This document shows, one piece after another, positions 17,631 through 43,935 of a stretch of DNA of 64,000 bases. Below the pieces are notes generated by a model. That model had not been told where the DNA came from. It worked only from the letters and a program-made list of their open reading frames with translations, and did no database searches. Positions within the stretch are counted from its first letter, which is position 1, and each line of letters opens with the position of its first letter. Source of the stretch: Planctomycetota bacterium. GTDB lineage: Bacteria > Planctomycetota > Planctomycetia > Pirellulales > Pirellulaceae. Position numbers and translations under genes: made by a program. The stretch spans positions 1-64,000 of the forward strand of contig VGZA01000007.1 in NCBI GenBank assembly GCA_016872775.1. Direction: 5' to 3'.

Positions 17631-19547
17631 ATGTGGCGGTACGGAAAATCATGGTGGGTCATTTTGATATTATTGTGGGCGATCGGCCTCCGCGGGCGCC
17701 TGCTTCACGGACAGGATGTGCGGCTGCGGGTTGCGGTGCAGGAGCCGCCCTATTATGTGGGCGAGCCCGCGGTAATTCAGTTTACGGTCGACGGTTTCGA
17801 GGAAGGCCCGGAGCCCAGCGTCGCCATCGACAACGGCAGCGGCGAGTTACCGTCGGGACTGCGAGCGAACATCGCGGCAATTAATCCTAGCGTGGTGTCC
17901 CAAGTGATTCAACGCAACGGACAGATCTTCCAAAGCCGGCGCGTTACCTATCAGATCCAGTACGTTGTCACCGCCGATGAACCGGGTGAATACCAGGTCG
18001 GACCGTTTCTTCTATCGCAAGGCACGCTGGAGGGCCGGGCAAAGGCGGTTTCACTCCGCTTCGGAACCGTGCCGATCGATCCGCGAATGCGCATCCGGCT
18101 GACGTTGCCCGAGCGACCGATTTACCCGGATCAACGAGTGCCTGTCGGAGTCGAGTGGTGGTTTGACGGCGAAGTCGAGAACATCCTGAAGCTGGCGATC
18201 TATTCGCCGCTGTTCGACCAATTCCACTTTGCCCCCGATCCTCCCGCGGACCGCAGAAGCTCGCAGTTGCCGATTGACACGAAGGCCGGCCGCCTGGCTT
18301 TGGCGGCCTCGGTGCGTCAGGAGCAGGACGACGACCAGCGATTTGTCGTCTTGTCCGCTCGGCGGACGTTGATCCCGGACAAACCGGGCGAGTATCTTCT
18401 GGGGCCGATCCGGGCCACGGCTCGTCGCGCGACGGAATGGGCTCGGCCTCGATCGCCGTTCGACGATATTGACGATCGCGGTTTCGGAGGCTCGCTGTTG
18501 CGCGGCTTCCTGGACGAACGCCGCCGGCCGTCGCGCACGGAATTAGGTCGAGTCGAAGGCGAACCGTTGCGCGTCACGGTCAAGCCGTTTCCGCAGGAGG
18601 GCCGCCCAGCCAGTTTTGCCGGCGCCGTGGGCAGCGGATTTTCCGTCGATGTGGCGGCCGATCGCACCGTCGTCCGGGTCGGCGATCCGATCGGCCTGCG
18701 GGTTTCCCTTCGTGGCGACGGCAACCTGGAAAACGCCGGATTGCCGAATCTGACCGCCGATGGGGGTATGGACCCGCAGCGTTTTCGCCTGCCGGATGGG
18801 GAACCTCCCGGCGCATTTGCCGACGACACCAAGACGTTTCAGATTTCGGTGCGGGTAACCGACGAAGCGGTTGACGAGATACCCGCACTGTCCTTTTCCT
18901 GGTTCGATCCGCTGACCGAAAGCTACCAGACGGCGCATTCCAAGCCGATTGCGCTGCGAGTGATGCCGGCCCGAGTTGTCTCGGCCAGCGACGTGGTGCG
19001 TTCGAGCGCCGCCGCTTCGACTCCCCATGACGAGTCCAGCGACCAACGTTCCGCATCGGGAAGTCAGGTCGCGAAAGCGGACTCGGCGAGCGACCGCAGC
19101 GCGCTGTTTCTTTTCGGCGCCGAGCTTTCCGTGGAATCCGATCCCGGCATTGTTCTGGGTTCGACGGATGGTTGGCATGAATCGATCGTTTCGCGCCTGC
19201 CGTTGACCCTGTATTTCCTGGGAGCCGTGGCCGTGGCGATCGCCGTCTGGGACCGTCGGCGGACTTCGGTCGATCCGAGGATCACGCATCAACGCAGAGT
19301 CTTGTGCGAACAACGAGCCCGAATCGAACGTGCGCGGGGCCTCGACGCCCGCGCTGCCGCACGCGAGGTCTCAGCCGCGCTGCGTCTGGTCCTGGCGGAA
19401 TCGTCCGACCTGGACCGCGACGCGGCCTCCGAGCTGATTGCCCGTTGCGAATCGATCGAGTACGCGCCTCAGTCAAACGGTGATCGGCCGTTCGACGAAG
19501 CGCTCCTTACTTCCGCGCTGCGTATCACGAATGGTGGTCCAAAGTGA
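17631..19547 (+). CDS. batD: BatD-like protein (oxygen-tolerance family)
   Basis: The protein has 638 residues. The N-terminal hydrophobic segment 'SWWVILILLWAIGLRG' is a signal peptide or anchor, followed by beta-sandwich repeats starting 'VRLRVAVQEPPYYVGEPAV', the BatD pattern of extracytoplasmic domains. A transmembrane helix near 520-542 ('LPLTLYFLGAVAVAIAVWD') leads to a short cytoplasmic helical tail. It starts 3 bp after the BatB-BatC stop and overlaps the next gene by 4 bases. In the known layout BatD faces the periplasm and holds VWA proteins together; here this is inferred from family and position. Confidence 0.87.
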   Translation: MWRYGKSWWVILILLWAIGLRGRLLHGQDVRLRVAVQEPPYYVGEPAVIQFTVDGFEEGPEPSVAIDNGSGELPSGLRANIAAINPSVVSQVIQRNGQIFQSRRVTYQIQYVVTADEPGEYQVGPFLLSQGTLEGRAKAVSLRFGTVPIDPRMRIRLTLPERPIYPDQRVPVGVEWWFDGEVENILKLAIYSPLFDQFHFAPDPPADRRSSQLPIDTKAGRLALAASVRQEQDDDQRFVVLSARRTLIPDKPGEYLLGPIRATARRATEWARPRSPFDDIDDRGFGGSLLRGFLDERRRPSRTELGRVEGEPLRVTVKPFPQEGRPASFAGAVGSGFSVDVAADRTVVRVGDPIGLRVSLRGDGNLENAGLPNLTADGGMDPQRFRLPDGEPPGAFADDTKTFQISVRVTDEAVDEIPALSFSWFDPLTESYQTAHSKPIALRVMPARVVSASDVVRSSAAASTPHDESSDQRSASGSQVAKADSASDRSALFLFGAELSVESDPGIVLGSTDGWHESIVSRLPLTLYFLGAVAVAIAVWDRRRTSVDPRITHQRRVLCEQRARIERARGLDARAAAREVSAALRLVLAESSDLDRDAASELIARCESIEYAPQSNGDRPFDEALLTSALRITNGGPK

Positions 19548-20368
19548 AGCAGTCCGCAGCAATCGCGTTGTTGGCCGTCTGGATGCTTGCCCGCCCCTTG
19601 CCGGTTCGCTCGACGACCGAAGCGGCCGACAGCAGCGCCGAACAACTTCGGAAAGCGGTATGCGAGTACCGCGCGGCCCTCGACGCGCACGAGCGTGACG
19701 AGCGTCTGGCGCGCTTTCGCACCGCCGAGAACCTCTTCCAGCGTCTGATTTCCGGCGACGCGGATCTTCGCGGAGCACGAAGTCCCGCATTGTTCGTCAA
19801 CCTGGGCAACGCGGCGCTGGGAGCGGAGCGGATCGGTGCCGCGATCCTGGCCTACCGACGCGCTCTGCGACTCGACCCACAGCATGTTCGAGCCCAGCAG
19901 AATCTGCAGCATGCGCGGACGCTGCTGCCGGATTGGGTGCCGCTGCCCCGCGAAGACAACTGGGTCGATTCATTGCTCGCGGGCGCGCCGCTCGCACCTC
20001 GTCAATTTTCGATCGCATTGGCCTTCGAGTTCCTGGCGGCCGCACTATGCCTGTCGATCGCCATCCGTTGGAGGATCGGTTGGTTGCGTTCCATCGCCGT
20101 ACTGTTGGCCATCGCCTGGGCTCTTTGCGGTAGCTGGTACCTTTACAAGAACGCAAGACCAGCCTACGAAGGAGCCGTCGTCAACACCGACGATCTGCTC
20201 GCGCGAAGCGCCGATTCGTCACGAGCCCCCGCCCGATTCCCCCAACCCGTGCCGGCCGGAACCGAGGTGGAACTGATGGAAACCCGCGAGGATTGGGCGC
20301 ATGTTCGATTCGCCGACGGGCGGGACGGATGGCTCCCCCGCGGCGCATTGGAAACAATCGACCAATGA
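19544..20368 (+). CDS. batE: BatE-like TPR and SH3 domain protein
   Basis: The protein has 274 residues, starting at GTG 19544, which overlaps the batD stop (GTGA). A signal-like N-terminus is followed by TPR helices ('LFVNLGNAALGAERIGAAIL' and neighbours, residues about 70-130). Two transmembrane segments follow at about 155-177 and 182-202. A C-terminal bacterial SH3 domain closes the protein ('VPAGTEVELMETREDWAHVR' and 'DGRDGWLPRGALE'). This order is the standard BatE layout. It is the last gene of the moxR operon. A long hairpin element follows directly, before a convergent glycosyltransferase gene. Confidence 0.88.
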   Translation: MKQSAAIALLAVWMLARPLPVRSTTEAADSSAEQLRKAVCEYRAALDAHERDERLARFRTAENLFQRLISGDADLRGARSPALFVNLGNAALGAERIGAAILAYRRALRLDPQHVRAQQNLQHARTLLPDWVPLPREDNWVDSLLAGAPLAPRQFSIALAFEFLAAALCLSIAIRWRIGWLRSIAVLLAIAWALCGSWYLYKNARPAYEGAVVNTDDLLARSADSSRAPARFPQPVPAGTEVELMETREDWAHVRFADGRDGWLPRGALETIDQ

Positions 20369-20371
20369 TCA

Positions 20372-20441
20372 GGGGGCGGGAGTCTTTGGCGGCGACGACG
20401 TTTCTGATAGTAAGCTGTTGGCGCCAAAGACTCCCGACCCC
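20372..20441 (-). repeat. Oriented palindromic element, copy A (about 70 bp)
   Basis: Arms 20372-20391 and 20422-20441 pair over 20 bp with one mismatch; the 14 innermost pairs are perfect (GGGAGTCTTTGGCG). The 30-base loop is asymmetric. The element reads on the minus strand when compared with the second copy at 39075-39145, whose loop is nearly identical. It fills the gap between the convergent batE and glycosyltransferase genes. A bidirectional terminator is the simplest reading. Confidence 0.8.
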
Positions 20442-20445
20442 TGCG

Positions 20446-21618
20446 TTATCGCTGCTTCGCGCTTTCCAGCACACGGCGGTAGATGGTGAGCGTGCCTTCG
20501 ACCATGGCCTCGGCCGTAAAATGCTGCCAGGCCCGGTCGTTGGCTCGCAGCGGATCGACTCCTGGAATCGGTAATCCCTCAGCAAGCGCCTGCAGGGCGT
20601 CGCTGACCGCCTCGGCCAACGCAGATGGATTTTGAGGAGGTACCATACGCGCTACCGCCGCGCCGTCGCCGCATGGCCCCACAAGATCGGGAATTCCGCC
20701 GGCGGTGGTCGTGATGATGGGCGTTCCGGCGAACATCGCATCAATCAGTGTGGAACAGAGTCCTTCCTGGACCGACGGCATTACCATCAAGTCAGCCGCT
20801 CGGAGCAGGTCGGGCACGTCCGATCGATAACCCAGAAAGCGAAAAAACGGCTGTAGTTCGAGTCGTGCAACTTCCGTTTCCAATGGGCCTCGCAGTTCGC
20901 CATCGCCCGCACAAACCGCGATGACCTGAGGGAACCGCTTGACGACCGTTTTCAAAGCCGCCAACAGGTCGCGATGGCCCTTGGCCTCGGTGAGTGTCGC
21001 CACCGTGACCAGAAGCAATTTGTCGTCGGCGATTCCCAGGCTGGCCCGACCGCGCCGACGGTCTCCCGAGCTGGCCCGATCCGGATCGACGCCGTCGTGG
21101 ACGATGGTGATCCGGGACCGATCGATACCTGACGCGCAGCAGGCCTCGGCGACGGTAGTGGACACCGGGACGACATGATTGGAAAACCATCGGTAGCGCC
21201 AAGCGGAACGGATTGGAAAATCAACGCGCCGCGCGGCGATACGGGCCGGAATGTTGAGTCCCACGCAGGCCAGGCCACCGCCGGTGAGTGCGTGGGAGTC
21301 GTGCAGGTGAATCACGTCGGGCAACCGCCGCCGCAACGCTGCGCGCATCCGGACGATCGCGGCTGGTCCGCGTCCGCCGCCCGGCAGCTCCTGGACGGAA
21401 AACTCCGCCGACTTCATGCGGATTGAGAATTCCCCTCCCGCGCGAGCGAAAATCAGATTTTCATGTCCCCGAGCGCGCAGGCCTTCACACAACAACCTCG
21501 CCTGCTCTTCTCCGCCATGCCAGCCGCGCTGCGTGCTGACGTGGGCGACGGTCAGTCGACCCGTGGCAGCCGCTCCCGCCGGCAGGTTGCGGGAGTCACC
21601 TTCGTCCATGATGGCCAT
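20446..21618 (-). CDS. Family 4 glycosyltransferase
   Basis: GT-B retaining glycosyltransferase of the GT4 type, about 390 residues and cytoplasmic. The N-terminal acceptor domain starts 'LTVAHVSTQRGWHGGEEQAR'. The C-terminal nucleotide-sugar domain carries 'LLLVTVATLTEAKGHRDLL', 'AVCAGDGELRGPLE' and the E-x7-E motif in 'PSVQEGLCSTLIDAMFAGTP', where the glutamates contact the donor. The frame is open further upstream, but similarity begins near 'RLTVAHVS'. I chose ATG 21618 because AGGA precedes it; ATG 21609 is possible. The sugar and acceptor are unknown. It converges with batE. Confidence 0.87.
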   Translation of the reverse strand: MAIMDEGDSRNLPAGAAATGRLTVAHVSTQRGWHGGEEQARLLCEGLRARGHENLIFARAGGEFSIRMKSAEFSVQELPGGGRGPAAIVRMRAALRRRLPDVIHLHDSHALTGGGLACVGLNIPARIAARRVDFPIRSAWRYRWFSNHVVPVSTTVAEACCASGIDRSRITIVHDGVDPDRASSGDRRRGRASLGIADDKLLLVTVATLTEAKGHRDLLAALKTVVKRFPQVIAVCAGDGELRGPLETEVARLELQPFFRFLGYRSDVPDLLRAADLMVMPSVQEGLCSTLIDAMFAGTPIITTTAGGIPDLVGPCGDGAAVARMVPPQNPSALAEAVSDALQALAEGLPIPGVDPLRANDRAWQHFTAEAMVEGTLTIYRRVLESAKQR

Positions 21619-21841
21619 TCCGATCCTGTTGCTGCTCCGCGGTTCCATGCTCGTTTGCGCGCTCCGTCCCCGGCCAATCTTAGCAAACTTTGCCCGCCGC
21701 GTCTGTTTCGCTTGCCGCGAGACGAGCCGCTGCATCCTCTCGTCATGGCACGTCATCCCGCTTGTCGTCGATTTTGGCCTGCCCGATCGTCGAAGTCCCA
21801 TTGCCGTTCTCGCGCGGACCCGCCGCGCAGGAACCACTCCC

Positions 21842-36954: not shown

Positions 36955-38418
36955 ATGGGATCGTCGACTCTCTCCCGGGAACTGCATGAATTGCGCGGGT
37001 CCCTGCTGCGCCGGCGCTGGTTCCTGCGCGAGTGCGGCGTCGGCCTGGCGGGAATCGCCGCGCATTGCTTGTTGTCTGAATCGGCCCGCGCGGATGCTCG
37101 CGATGCATCGAACGACCCGCGCGATGCAACGCGCGTCCTCGCCCCACGCCCGCCCCATTTTGCGGCGAAGGCCCGACGCGTTATCTACATGTTTAATGCA
37201 GGTGGTCCTAGTCAATTGGAGCTCTATGATCATAAACCGGAACTGACAAAACGGAACGGCCAATTGCCGCCGGCGGAACTGCTCCATGGCTACCGCGCCG
37301 CTTTCATCAACCCCAATTCGGCTCTGCTCGGACCGAAGTACAAATTCCAGCCGCACGGTAAATGTGGCATGGAACTCAGCGAACTCCTGCCGCACACCGC
37401 CGAGATCGCCGACCGGATCTGCCTGGTCCGGTCGCTGCAGACCGACGCGGTCAACCATGCCCCGGCCCAGATCCTGATGAACACCGGTTCCTCGCAGTTC
37501 GGGCGGCCGAGTTTCGGCGCATGGACGCTTTATGGCCTGGGCAGCGAATCCGCCGACCTGCCAGGATTCGTCGTCCTGACCAGCGCCAAAGGCACCAGCG
37601 GCGGCGCGAGCAACTATGGCGCCGGGTTTCTGCCGACCGCCTACGGCGGCATTCCTTTCCGCGGCGCGGGCGATCCCGTGCTCTACCTTTCCAACCCGCG
37701 TGGCATCGATGAGCAAGCCCAGCGCGCTTCACTCGAAACACTGCGACGATTGAACGAGCAGACGCTGCGTGAACTGGCCGATCCGGAAACGGCCGCCCGG
37801 ATCCAGAACTACGAAATGGCTTACCGGCTGCAGACCAGCGCGCCGGAATTAATGGACCTCTCCCAGGAGTCGCGCGAAACGCTCGATCTGTACGGTGTCA
37901 AGGATCCCAAGGAGGCAAGCTACGCCCGCAACTGCCTGCTCGCCCGACGGTTGATCGAACGAGGCGTACGGTTTGTGCAGCTGTTCCACGAGGCGTGGGA
38001 CCAGCACGGCAACCTCGCCGCCGACGTCAAGAAAAACGCCGGGGACACCGACCGAGCCAGCGCCGCACTGGTGAAAGATCTGCAGCAGCGCGGGCTGCTG
38101 AACGACACGCTGGTGATCTGGAGCGGGGAGTTCGGCCGCACCCCGATGGTCCAAGGCGGGAACGACGGCCGCGACCATCACAACCGCTGCTACAGCATCT
38201 GGCTGGCCGGCGGCGGCATCCGCGCCGGCCATGTGCACGGCGAGACCGATGAACTCGGCTTCAACGTCGCAGCGGGACTTGTCCATGTTCATGACTTGAA
38301 CGCGACGTTGCTGCATGCGTTGGGGCTGGACCACACACGGTTAACGTTCCGCTTCCAGGGCCGCGACTATCGCCTGACCGATGTGCATGGAAAGATCGTG
38401 CAAGAGATCCTGGCTTGA
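36955..38418 (+). CDS. DUF1501 protein no. 2, cytochrome-operon partner
   Basis: The protein has 487 residues. The leader carries an arginine cluster, 'LRRRWFLRECGVGLAGIAAH', of twin-arginine type. DUF1501 landmarks are 'VIYMFNAGGPSQLELYDHKP', 'RICLVRSLQTDAVNHAPAQ', 'CLLARRLIERGVRFVQLFHE', 'LVIWSGEFGRTPMVQGG' and 'DGRDHHNRCYSIWLAGGG'. This DUF1501 type is the standard companion of PSCyt1 proteins, and the two are assumed to work on the same exported substrate. It lies 18 bp after the PSCyt1 gene and 16 bp before the P460-like gene, so three genes form one operon. Confidence 0.93.
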   Translation: MGSSTLSRELHELRGSLLRRRWFLRECGVGLAGIAAHCLLSESARADARDASNDPRDATRVLAPRPPHFAAKARRVIYMFNAGGPSQLELYDHKPELTKRNGQLPPAELLHGYRAAFINPNSALLGPKYKFQPHGKCGMELSELLPHTAEIADRICLVRSLQTDAVNHAPAQILMNTGSSQFGRPSFGAWTLYGLGSESADLPGFVVLTSAKGTSGGASNYGAGFLPTAYGGIPFRGAGDPVLYLSNPRGIDEQAQRASLETLRRLNEQTLRELADPETAARIQNYEMAYRLQTSAPELMDLSQESRETLDLYGVKDPKEASYARNCLLARRLIERGVRFVQLFHEAWDQHGNLAADVKKNAGDTDRASAALVKDLQQRGLLNDTLVIWSGEFGRTPMVQGGNDGRDHHNRCYSIWLAGGGIRAGHVHGETDELGFNVAAGLVHVHDLNATLLHALGLDHTRLTFRFQGRDYRLTDVHGKIVQEILA

Positions 38419-38434
38419 TATCAAGGAGTTGTCG

Positions 38435-39070
38435 ATGCGTCGTCCATTTATCTTGGTTGCGTTGATTCCGGCCTGCTTGCTCGCCATCGCCGTCGTCGAT
38501 CGTTTTTCGGCGGCCGATCCGAAACCGCATCTGGCGGGAATGCCGTTGCCCGAATACAGCGCGGATGGTGCGTTGCTGCGTCCCACAGGATTCGACCGTT
38601 GGGTGGTCGTCGGCACTTCGATCGGCTTGAGTTATTCCGATGATGCACCGCGGGATCCCGCCAACCCGGGGCTGTTTCACAATGTCTACCTGCAGCCGCA
38701 GGCGTTCGAGTATTATGTGCGCACCGGCGAGTTTCCCGAGCAGTCGGTGTTTATTGTGACCAATTGCCCGTCCCGTCCCGCGAAGGGGAACGGCGACGTC
38801 AATCGCCGCGGGTTCTTTGCCGACGCGACGCACGGGCTGGAAGTCTCCGTCAAGGACTCACAGCGATTCGAAGGTGGCTGGGGCTATTTCATGTTCCACG
38901 ACGCCGAAGCGGCACCGCGGTCCCCGGCCGAATCCAAAAAACGAGAAGCGGTCCCGGCATTGCCGCAGCGCGACTGTTTCGACTGCCACGCCGAACATGC
39001 GCGACAAGACAACGTCTTCACCCAGTTCTATTCGGTGCTGAACAGCGCCCGCGCCAACCGCGGTGAGTAA
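38435..39070 (+). CDS. P460-like c-type cytochrome
   Basis: The protein has 211 residues. ATG 38435 follows AAGGAG (38423-38428) and begins a signal peptide ('FILVALIPACLLAIAVVDRF'). A P460-type domain is suggested by 'RWVVVGTSIGLSYSDD', 'NVYLQPQAFEYYVRTGEFPE' and 'GWGYFMFHDAE'. The C-terminal heme c attachment site is 'CFDCHAEHA' (C181, C184, H185). P460 cytochromes carry a heme cross-linked to lysine or tyrosine and oxidise hydroxylamine or detoxify nitrogen oxides. That function is only suggestive here. It ends the PSCyt1 operon, and an oriented palindrome follows. Confidence 0.8.
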   Translation: MRRPFILVALIPACLLAIAVVDRFSAADPKPHLAGMPLPEYSADGALLRPTGFDRWVVVGTSIGLSYSDDAPRDPANPGLFHNVYLQPQAFEYYVRTGEFPEQSVFIVTNCPSRPAKGNGDVNRRGFFADATHGLEVSVKDSQRFEGGWGYFMFHDAEAAPRSPAESKKREAVPALPQRDCFDCHAEHARQDNVFTQFYSVLNSARANRGE

Positions 39071-39074
39071 GTCC

Positions 39075-39145
39075 GGGGTCGGGAGTCTTTGGCGCCAACA
39101 ACCTCACCATCAGAAAAGTCGTCGCCGCCAAAGACTCCCGACCCC
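39075..39145 (+). repeat. Oriented palindromic element, copy B (71 bp)
   Basis: Arms 39075-39094 and 39126-39145 pair perfectly over 20 bp (GGGGTCGGGAGTCTTTGGCG and its complement) around a 31-base loop. The loop contains CCAACA at its start and GTCGTCGC at its end, as in copy A read in reverse. It lies between the convergent P460-like and oxidoreductase genes. Confidence 0.85.
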
Positions 39146-39183: not shown

Positions 39184-40482
39184 TTACACCTTATCCGGAA
39201 TCTGGAATGCTCCGCGACCGGATCGTTTCATCAGCGCGGTGGCTTCTGCGTCGCCGGTGATCGCGAGATTCTCGGCGTCAAAGTTCAGCGTCCGGCCGAC
39301 GCGGTACGAGAGGTTGCCCAGGTGCGCGAGCAACGTGGAGCGATGTCCTTCGGCGATGTCGCATTGCGGCGTGCTGCCGGACTTGATGCAGCTCAGGAAA
39401 TTCTCGATGTGCGGAATGTCGCTGAACGCGACCTGCTTGTCGAACAGGACTTCGTTCTTGCGACCCACAACGCGCCAGCCTCGACGCCCGATCACCATGT
39501 ATCCCTCCGTGCCGTAGAACGCGACACCGTTTTCGAATCCCTCCTGCACATAGTTGGACCAGAGTCGTTGCTCGTAGACCAGAATCGCTTGCTGCTTCGG
39601 GAAGCGAAAAGTGACGATCTGGGTGTCGGGCGTCTCCTGGATGTCGCCGGCGAAATGCAGCTTGTCCGCCATCGCGTGGACCTCGGTCGGATAATCGACG
39701 CCGAGTCCCCAACGCGCGATATCCAGATCGTGGACGCCGTCATTGCCCATGTCCCCCGTGCCGTAGTCCCACATCCAGCGCCAACCGTAAGTGTAGCGAT
39801 TCGCGTTGAAGGGTCGTTCCGGCGCGGGTCCTTGCCAGATGTCCCAGTCGAGTCCCGTTGGGACGGGCGAGTCGGGGACTTCGGGCACGCGTCGGCGGAG
39901 CTGGCTGTTCCAGGCTTTCGCCATATGCAGTTTGCCGAGTTTCCCCGCGCGAAGAAGTTCCATCGCCTCGAGGTAATGCGGTACGCTGCGGCTCTGTGTA
40001 CCGACCTGAACAACCCGATTGTACTTGCGGGCGGCGGCCACCATCTGCTGGCCTTCGAATGGGTTGTGGCTGATCGGCTTTTCGACATAAACATGTTTGC
40101 CGGCCTGGCACCCCCAGATCGTTGCCAGGGCATGCCAGTGGTCAGGCGTGGCGACCACGATGGCGTCGACCGACTTGTCGTCGAGTACTCTTCGCAGGTC
40201 GGTTACGGCCTTGGGTTCCGACTTCTGCACGTCGCTGATCTGCTTTGCATAGCCGCCCAGCAGAGGCTCATTGACGTCACAGATATGAGTGACTTGCGCC
40301 TCGGGCCGTCCGGCGAAATCGGTACCGAGGCCTCGACCTCGTCCGCGCACGCCGATGACGCAGACCGAAATTCGGTCGTTGGCGGCGGCCTTGGCCGGTG
40401 TCGGCGCGACCGAAAGAGTTGCGGCGGCAACAGCGCCGGCCGCGGTATGGACAAGAGCGTCACGACGATTGACGGTCAACAT
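39184..40482 (-). CDS. TAT-exported Gfo/Idh/MocA oxidoreductase
   Basis: The protein has 432 residues. The leader 'NRRDALVHTAAGAVAAATLS' is twin-arginine type. The Rossmann domain begins 'RISVCVIGVRGRGRGLG' and continues 'VTHICDVNEPLLGGYAKQIS' and 'DAIVVATPDHWHALATI'. The family E-K-P motif is 'YVEKPISHNPFEG', and the C-terminal alpha/beta domain carries 'DYGTGDMGNDGVHDLDIARW'. The enzyme would oxidise or reduce a sugar or inositol with bound NAD(P). Exported members are expanded in planctomycetes. A good promoter lies about 45 bp upstream. It converges with the P460-like gene. Confidence 0.92.
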   Translation of the reverse strand: MLTVNRRDALVHTAAGAVAAATLSVAPTPAKAAANDRISVCVIGVRGRGRGLGTDFAGRPEAQVTHICDVNEPLLGGYAKQISDVQKSEPKAVTDLRRVLDDKSVDAIVVATPDHWHALATIWGCQAGKHVYVEKPISHNPFEGQQMVAAARKYNRVVQVGTQSRSVPHYLEAMELLRAGKLGKLHMAKAWNSQLRRRVPEVPDSPVPTGLDWDIWQGPAPERPFNANRYTYGWRWMWDYGTGDMGNDGVHDLDIARWGLGVDYPTEVHAMADKLHFAGDIQETPDTQIVTFRFPKQQAILVYEQRLWSNYVQEGFENGVAFYGTEGYMVIGRRGWRVVGRKNEVLFDKQVAFSDIPHIENFLSCIKSGSTPQCDIAEGHRSTLLAHLGNLSYRVGRTLNFDAENLAITGDAEATALMKRSGRGAFQIPDKV

Positions 40483-43560: not shown

Positions 43561-43568
43561 CAACTGTC

Positions 43569-43850
43569 CTCCCTTCTCCACCGGTATTTCTTGCTAGTAA
43601 CCCATGCTCCCCTCTCCCTGTACTCTGGAAGAGGGGCCGGGGGTGAGGGAATGGAACGGGCATGCGCTACGCTACCGGCTCTTGTGCGGAACGTCGACGA
43701 GTCCCCGGGAACGTCGTCGGTATGTGGACGTTCGCGAAAGTGCGCGGCTCCACTAGGTTGTCGCGAAAAGACCGGTAGCATTGCACCACGTCTTTCCTGG
43801 CCCCCTCATCCCCGGCCCTTCTCCCCCGGAAATACCGGTGGAGAAGGGAG
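43569..43850. repeat. CTCCC/GAGGG repeat cluster flanked by a perfect 22-bp inverted repeat
   Basis: The 22-mer beginning CTCCCTTCTCCACCGG at 43569-43590 recurs in inverse orientation at 43829-43850. Two further relatives lie between: CTCCCCTCTCCC..AAGAGGGGCCGGGGGTGAGGG at 43608-43650 and, on the minus strand, the extension of the second copy to about 43799 (GGGGGAGAAGGGCCGGGGATGAGGG). Three units of one GC-skewed family thus fill much of the 425-bp gap between the aldo/keto reductase and DUF1501 no. 3. No coding frame is plausible here. Confidence 0.75.
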
Positions 43851-43935
43851 AACTGTAGTTTGCAGTCGGTTGAATCCGCCCTGGGGCATAGGTTACGAGC
43901 GTCTGCCGCAAGCTATGGCAATCCGCGATTCGTGG

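Follow-up and report, generated by a model that had tools for sequence, protein, structure and literature searches.

Palindromic elements with conserved arms and turned-over loops dispersed in planctomycete genomes: probable REPIN-like doublets that look orphaned of a RAYT-type transposase

The stretch of planctomycete DNA analysed here (64,000 nucleotides, referred to as the window) belongs to a genome, probably of the order Pirellulales, of 5.85 Mb in 141 contigs that is 99.9% complete (referred to as G000), and contains two copies of a palindromic element, A and B, in opposite orientations. The elements, their parts and the neighbouring genes are as follows.

19544-20368, plus strand: gene left of copy A, with weak TPR and SH3 matches under the Pfam cut-offs; 3 bp to the element
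20372-20441, minus strand: copy A, 70-bp element; arms 20372-20391 and 20422-20441, loop 20392-20421
20446-21837, minus strand: gene right of copy A, glycosyltransferase group 1; 4 bp to the element
38381-39070, plus strand: gene left of copy B, cytochrome P460; 4 bp to the element
39075-39145, plus strand: copy B, 71-bp element; arms 39075-39094 and 39126-39145, loop 39095-39125
39184-40482, minus strand: gene right of copy B, Gfo/Idh/MocA oxidoreductase; 38 bp to the element

Both palindromes lie where an earlier note on this DNA had placed them, with arms of 20 bp (GGGGTCGGGAGTCTTTGGCG / CGCCAAAGACTCCCGACCCC) that contain one mismatch in copy A (GGGGGCGGG... versus ...CCCGACCCC), as had been described, and none in copy B. 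The loops, of 30 bases in A and 31 in B, are similar only when A is reversed, and the asymmetric loop that the note had proposed for both copies is borne out by two inverted pairs between them (I1 and I2, of 44 and 33 nt, 91% complementary). The 14-mer GGGAGTCTTTGGCG, allowing up to two mismatches, has 5 matches in the window versus 0.80 expected, a count reached in 0 of 100 shuffles, whilst with up to one mismatch it is found genome-wide 17 times forward and 15 times in reverse (0 and 2 for a reversed-letter control); together these counts exclude chance. Each copy sits between convergent genes in a gap that it nearly fills, again as described.

The window holds two further repeats. A 28-nt inverted repeat (43563-43590 / 43829-43856, 93% complementary, 238 bases apart) lies between genes, in a gap of some 370 bp, and could mark the two termini of a MITE-like element of 294 bp; a 22-mer taken from it has no exact match among the 175 loci examined. 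A 9-bp tandem repeat (115-330 and 1060-1122) lies in the first called gene and, judged by its letters, would encode a stretch rich in Gly and Met.

The earlier note had taken A and B for members of an oriented, dispersed family, an idea it would have abandoned had the genome held only these two copies or many copies inside genes. The genome search that it called for, in which a full copy was required to have at most 5 mismatches in 20 between each arm and one of two arm consensuses and 15-60 bases in between, found 13 full copies in G000, together with one degraded copy (C7:107417, outside the window and judged by eye) and three single arms (C42:48588, C9:115707 and C18:83781); four short, one-piece near-matches (C75:13494, C48:9104, C42:16091 and C3:140155) were left out of the count. 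All 13 loops give higher alignment scores in one orientation than in the other (means 18.4-36.4 versus -0.8 to 10.2), with ACCATCAGAA or a variant of it in mid-loop, so that the family and its orientation are upheld. A short repeat, AATCGCGAATCGTG, was seen close to two of the copies (L013 and L015).

Three further planctomycete genomes share the arms of the element and differ in loop sequence: G258, from the same family as G000 and another genus; G210 (Pirellulales bacterium SJ197), from another family; and the metagenome-assembled genome (MAG) Planctomycetaceae F1-120-MAGs210 (F1-120, also G676). The exact 16-mer GTCGGGAGTCTTTGGC occurs in 3 of 296 genomes of the order, namely G000, G258 and G210. 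The genome_contigs collection (described as covering 84,980 species; G000 itself may be left out) was scanned for palindromes in which both 16-nt arms are exact, and yielded 15 stretches, 14 of them in F1-120 and one in G210. In total 79 full copies were collected (13 from G000, 17 from G258, 35 from G210 and 14 from F1-120), leaving out L032, an isolated 16-mer that by eye appears to be coding sequence, and L076 (G258:C1:793100-797200), which contains no doublet under the rule. A covariance model searched against 392 genomes of the phylum (E <= 0.001) matched in G000, G015, G615 and G617 only; since at most 12 candidates were scored per genome under strict filters, this search undercounts diverged copies, and G258 and G210 were evidently outside its sample. 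The matches in G615 and G617 were discounted as members, being shorter palindromes of 47 and 51 bp. Among viral contigs, one carries a single exact match to the 16-mer with no partner arm, and as a text string the 16-mer appears in no paper of the open-licence PMC.

The copies occupy mixed positions relative to genes. None of the 13 in G000 lies inside a gene as called by a home-made codon-based caller with scored starts; six are between convergent genes, five between tandem genes, one between divergent genes and one at a contig end, and the five tandem copies have no bias in orientation (two the same as their genes, three opposite). The settings in G258 are 4 convergent, 11 tandem and 2 divergent; those in G210 are 21 tandem, 3 convergent and 3 divergent, with 7 copies inside a call and 1 at a contig end; and those in F1-120 are 6 tandem, 2 convergent and 3 divergent, with 2 inside a call and 1 at a contig end. 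These calls are rough: a cruder version of the caller, which over-extended starts, put 1/13, 10/35 and 9/14 copies of G000, G210 and F1-120 'inside' genes and made the sole divergent copy of G000 (L009) a tandem one. Because the settings are mixed in G000 and likewise in the other genomes, the convergent placement that the earlier note saw in A and B stands for these two copies and is no general rule for the family.

Arms and loops differ sharply in how well they are kept. Mean pairwise identity in arm and loop respectively is 0.938 and 0.646 in G000, 0.942 and 0.484 in G258, 0.863 and 0.522 in G210 and 0.989 and 0.417 in F1-120, a contrast that is an upper estimate because the copies were gathered by arm similarity (by exact arms in F1-120). 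The loop sequence is particular to each genome and its length is nearly fixed, with elements of 71 bp in 10 of the 13 copies of G000, 73 bp in 15 of 17 in G258, 75 bp in 29 of 35 in G210 and either 71 bp (nine) or 72 bp (five) in all 14 of F1-120. Arm changes are paired: 53 cells are altered on both sides versus 14.9 in shuffles (0 of 500 reach 53), a statistic in which related rows can exceed shuffles without structure; seven pairs have double-sided changes versus 1-4 in slid controls; and 95.1% of arm cells are paired, a percentage inflated by the same manner of collection. Quasi-palindrome correction during replication could also yield paired changes. The clearest sub-families were seen in G210, which also has clusters of the element (L078, that is G210:C107, L077 and L089); its arm changes are paired, and the same G.A stem mismatch recurs in a number of copies. 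The predicted hairpins are strong (z from -6 to -10). Neither arm of copy B folds alone, and no consistent GTAG tag was found in the 8 bases flanking the copies. A preference of folding for one strand is seen in 12 of the 13 copies of G000, several by only about 0.1 kcal/mol, and is weak in F1-120.

Comparison with a congener of G258, G216, which lacks the exact 16-mer, reveals sites without the element. Ten G258 sites were tried, and G216 has no element at any of the three that are comparable, with both flanking genes recognisable. At the L035 site two genes lie about 30 bp apart by eye (left flank matched, right gene recognised); at the L072 site both flanks match side by side around a shorter, unrelated spacer; and at the dihydropyrimidinase site, covered by a single alignment and with gene names read from the translations, the gap holds a different palindrome, GTAGCCCGACGCGT...ACGCGTCGGGCTAC. 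The other seven sites were uninformative, either because the flanks matched far apart (L029, L031 and L073) or because one flank or a fragment was found (L028, L071, L074 and L075). The aminotransferase-dihydropyrimidinase slot (L160 / L161) thus contains a GGGGTC element in G258 and an unrelated palindrome of GTAG type in G216, as if different REP-like families reused the same safe sites. Abutting direct repeats of at least 3 nt are at chance level (0/13 copies in G000, 1/17 in G258, 0/35 in G210 and 0/14 in F1-120). Y1 elements of the IS200/IS605 kind are not expected to duplicate their target, and the copy sets, with no excess of direct repeats, agree with such an element in this trait.

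A search for the enzyme found no Y1_Tnp domain (PF01797) in G000 (0 candidates) and no homologue there, at E <= 1e-15, of the REP-associated tyrosine transposase (RAYT) of G015 (6 of 9 candidates scored). Y1_Tnp loci are present in the other carriers, seven in G258, two in G210 (a genome 68% complete) and 11 in F1-120; no full arm lies beside any of them in the roughly 1.5 kb searched on either side (less where a contig ends), and several of these genes have different long inverted repeats instead. Between two close copies in G258 lies a gene that was considered as a transposase and ruled out, its translation reading as a YchF-like GTPase.

The connection to a transposase comes from relatives. 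In G015, a Y1_Tnp gene whose reading frame is 251 aa long is bracketed by diverged palindromes (GAAAAAGGGGTC[A/T]GGTCTCTTTTTCG), and homologues of the encoded protein at E <= 1e-15 are found in 160 of 396 genomes of the order; G258 has one, unlinked to element arms, and G210 is absent among the matches listed. In G144, a family-mate of G000, all five matches (at most one mismatch) to GGGGTCGGGAGTCTTT, the first 16 bases of the arm, fall within C722:5397-6421 around a RAYT-type gene for a protein of 220 aa. This locus (L148) carries AGGGGGTCGGGAGTCTTTTC: upstream of the gene lie an inverted pair 105 bp long and, beyond it, a further single arm; downstream lies a second inverted pair, which spans about 110 bp by eye. 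In G144 the 16-nt core thus occurs in inverted copies around a Y1 transposase gene, whilst the full 20-nt arm is so placed in no genome examined. Other RAYT loci carry GGGGACGGGAGTCTTT (L142) and GGGGACGGGAGTCATT (L143), and of 30 related loci 23 have spanning inverted repeats of at least 12 nt and seven have none, with the core GGG[AT]C[AG] present by eye in 19 of the 23. Pfam on one scanned RAYT protein returned Y1_Tnp only. 'RAYT kind' is our reading of these proteins, because the NCBIfam model for REP-associated tyrosine transposases, which has a cut-off of 80 bits, gives those of L148 and L113 only 68.6 and 57.1 bits; the G144 protein has no match in the PDB at E <= 0.001. The RAYT-like group to which they belong (L113 and L131-L159), marked by HWH and Y-[VT]-E-R-N-[A/P] motifs, is common in the order. 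The link to a REP-type transposase suggested by the earlier note therefore survives through the RAYT-type genes of relatives, by the core in G144 and the diverged arm in G015, and not through G000 itself, where none was found.

These elements are probably non-autonomous REPIN-like doublets, in which two inverted terminal repeats of the RAYT/TIRYT type enclose a short spacer. On this reading the arms, folded into a hairpin in single-stranded DNA, would be recognised by a RAYT-kind Y1 (HUH) transposase, whose tyrosine would cut at or near them, and the element would be copied or moved elsewhere without target duplication; the core around the G144 gene and the chance level of direct repeats point to such an enzyme. 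If only doublets with good arms were copied, the arms would be held fixed whilst the loop drifted in sequence and hardly in length, giving each lineage a loop of its own. We infer that the enzyme was lost in G000, whose copies look like stranded leftovers, orphaned of their transposase and decaying between genes. The main gap in this reading is that no RAYT with the full GGCG-ended arm was found in the genomes examined. Gain and loss of RAYTs are left out of the main model of PMC8049555, which, in the portion drawn on here, gives them an elementary analysis only, in an appendix.

The conservation of the arms invites another reading, that of a host-maintained site, in which the arms, even if mobile in origin, are a selected protein-binding or RNA-stabilising palindrome, such as an mRNA 3'-end protector or a nucleoid or gyrase site. 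The arms are far more alike than the loops though no Y1 transposase was found in G000, none of the 13 copies is inside a gene call and the arm changes are paired; but copying would itself be expected to select for conserved arms, whose likeness the way of collecting the copies inflates, the exact 16-mer is patchy (three genomes of the order, G000 included), the G216 sites are without the element and the positions relative to genes are mixed, and we consider a host site unlikely. A related possibility, to which we likewise give little probability, is that the doublets were co-opted by the host after the transposase was lost, the arms being maintained as a site for binding in trans or for RNA processing; this would explain why, in the same G000 copies, arms are about 94% and loops about 65% alike without a Y1 transposase being found, and would make intergenic slots near gene ends reusable docking places, as the orthologous site of G258 and G216 hints.

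Terminal inverted repeats and dispersed copies would equally suit a classical MITE mobilised by a DDE transposase, but such an element should leave target duplications, and direct repeats are at chance in all four sets of copies (old copies may have lost theirs); moreover the core is found around a gene for a Y1 transposase, which leaves this origin very unlikely. Intrinsic or bidirectional terminators that share sequence by accident would account for the strong hairpins and for the placing of A and B between convergent genes, yet no terminator-like site was called at either copy by the criterion of a short-loop stem and a T run, the loops are 30-35 bases long, fewer than half of the placed copies lie between convergent genes and the arm sequence is common to several families and genera, so that terminators are highly improbable. 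A structured RNA family, finally, is suggested by the paired stem changes and scarcely by anything else: the window has no Rfam match, the loops differ between genomes and the strand preference of folding is not beyond controls in G258 and G210, making this reading hardly credible.

Taken as REPIN-like doublets, the elements form a dispersed palindrome family with turned-over loops that is tied to a RAYT-type enzyme by a 16-nt core common to genera. G000, in which the search for such an enzyme came up empty, offers a natural example of a doublet population of this sort. Setting orphan genomes beside those that keep the enzyme could tell upkeep of the arms by copying from use by the host.

REPINs, as Bertels and Rainey (2011; PMC3116915) describe them in the passages drawn on here, are REP doublets that form hairpins, with conserved inverted ends, an emphasis on spacer length and paired changes. 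The planctomycete elements resemble them in having a pair of inverted ends that are at least 16 nt long and highly conserved (among copies gathered by arm similarity), a less conserved spacer that drifts in sequence and keeps its length, a predicted single-stranded hairpin with paired changes and a dispersed, mostly intergenic distribution. Unlike the REPINs of those passages, they lack ends that are each a REP with its own small palindrome and a GTAG-type tag, the arms of copy B not folding alone and no consistent GTAG being present, and a cognate RAYT was neither found in G000 nor seen beside the full arm in G258, G210 and F1-120. For these reasons we call them REPIN-like, TIR-type and orphan rather than REPINs.

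The terminal repeats can also be compared with those of TIRtrons. Within the part of Di Nocera et al. (2013; PMC3733652) considered here, TIRYT genes are Y1 transposase genes enclosed by long TIRs, many of which contain the core GGGGWSAS, and some TIR types form dispersed dimers or clusters. TnpA-Y1 subclass 2.1 includes 20 of 26 TIRYT examples, and class 2 has the signature Y---NP (PMC6006769, from the sections used); the 30 RAYT relatives have N/T-H-W-H and Y-[VT]-E-R-N-[A or P], the final P being missing in 18 of them. The genome carrying the copies differs from the TIRtron arrangement of Di Nocera et al. in that no transposase was found in it; in G144 the 16-nt core, but in no genome examined the full 20-nt arm, stands as inverted repeats around a Y1 transposase gene. 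Against the GGGGWSAS core, GGGGTCGG of the G000 elements fits at seven of eight positions, with G for A at position 7, and its relative in G015, GGGGTCAG, fits at all eight.
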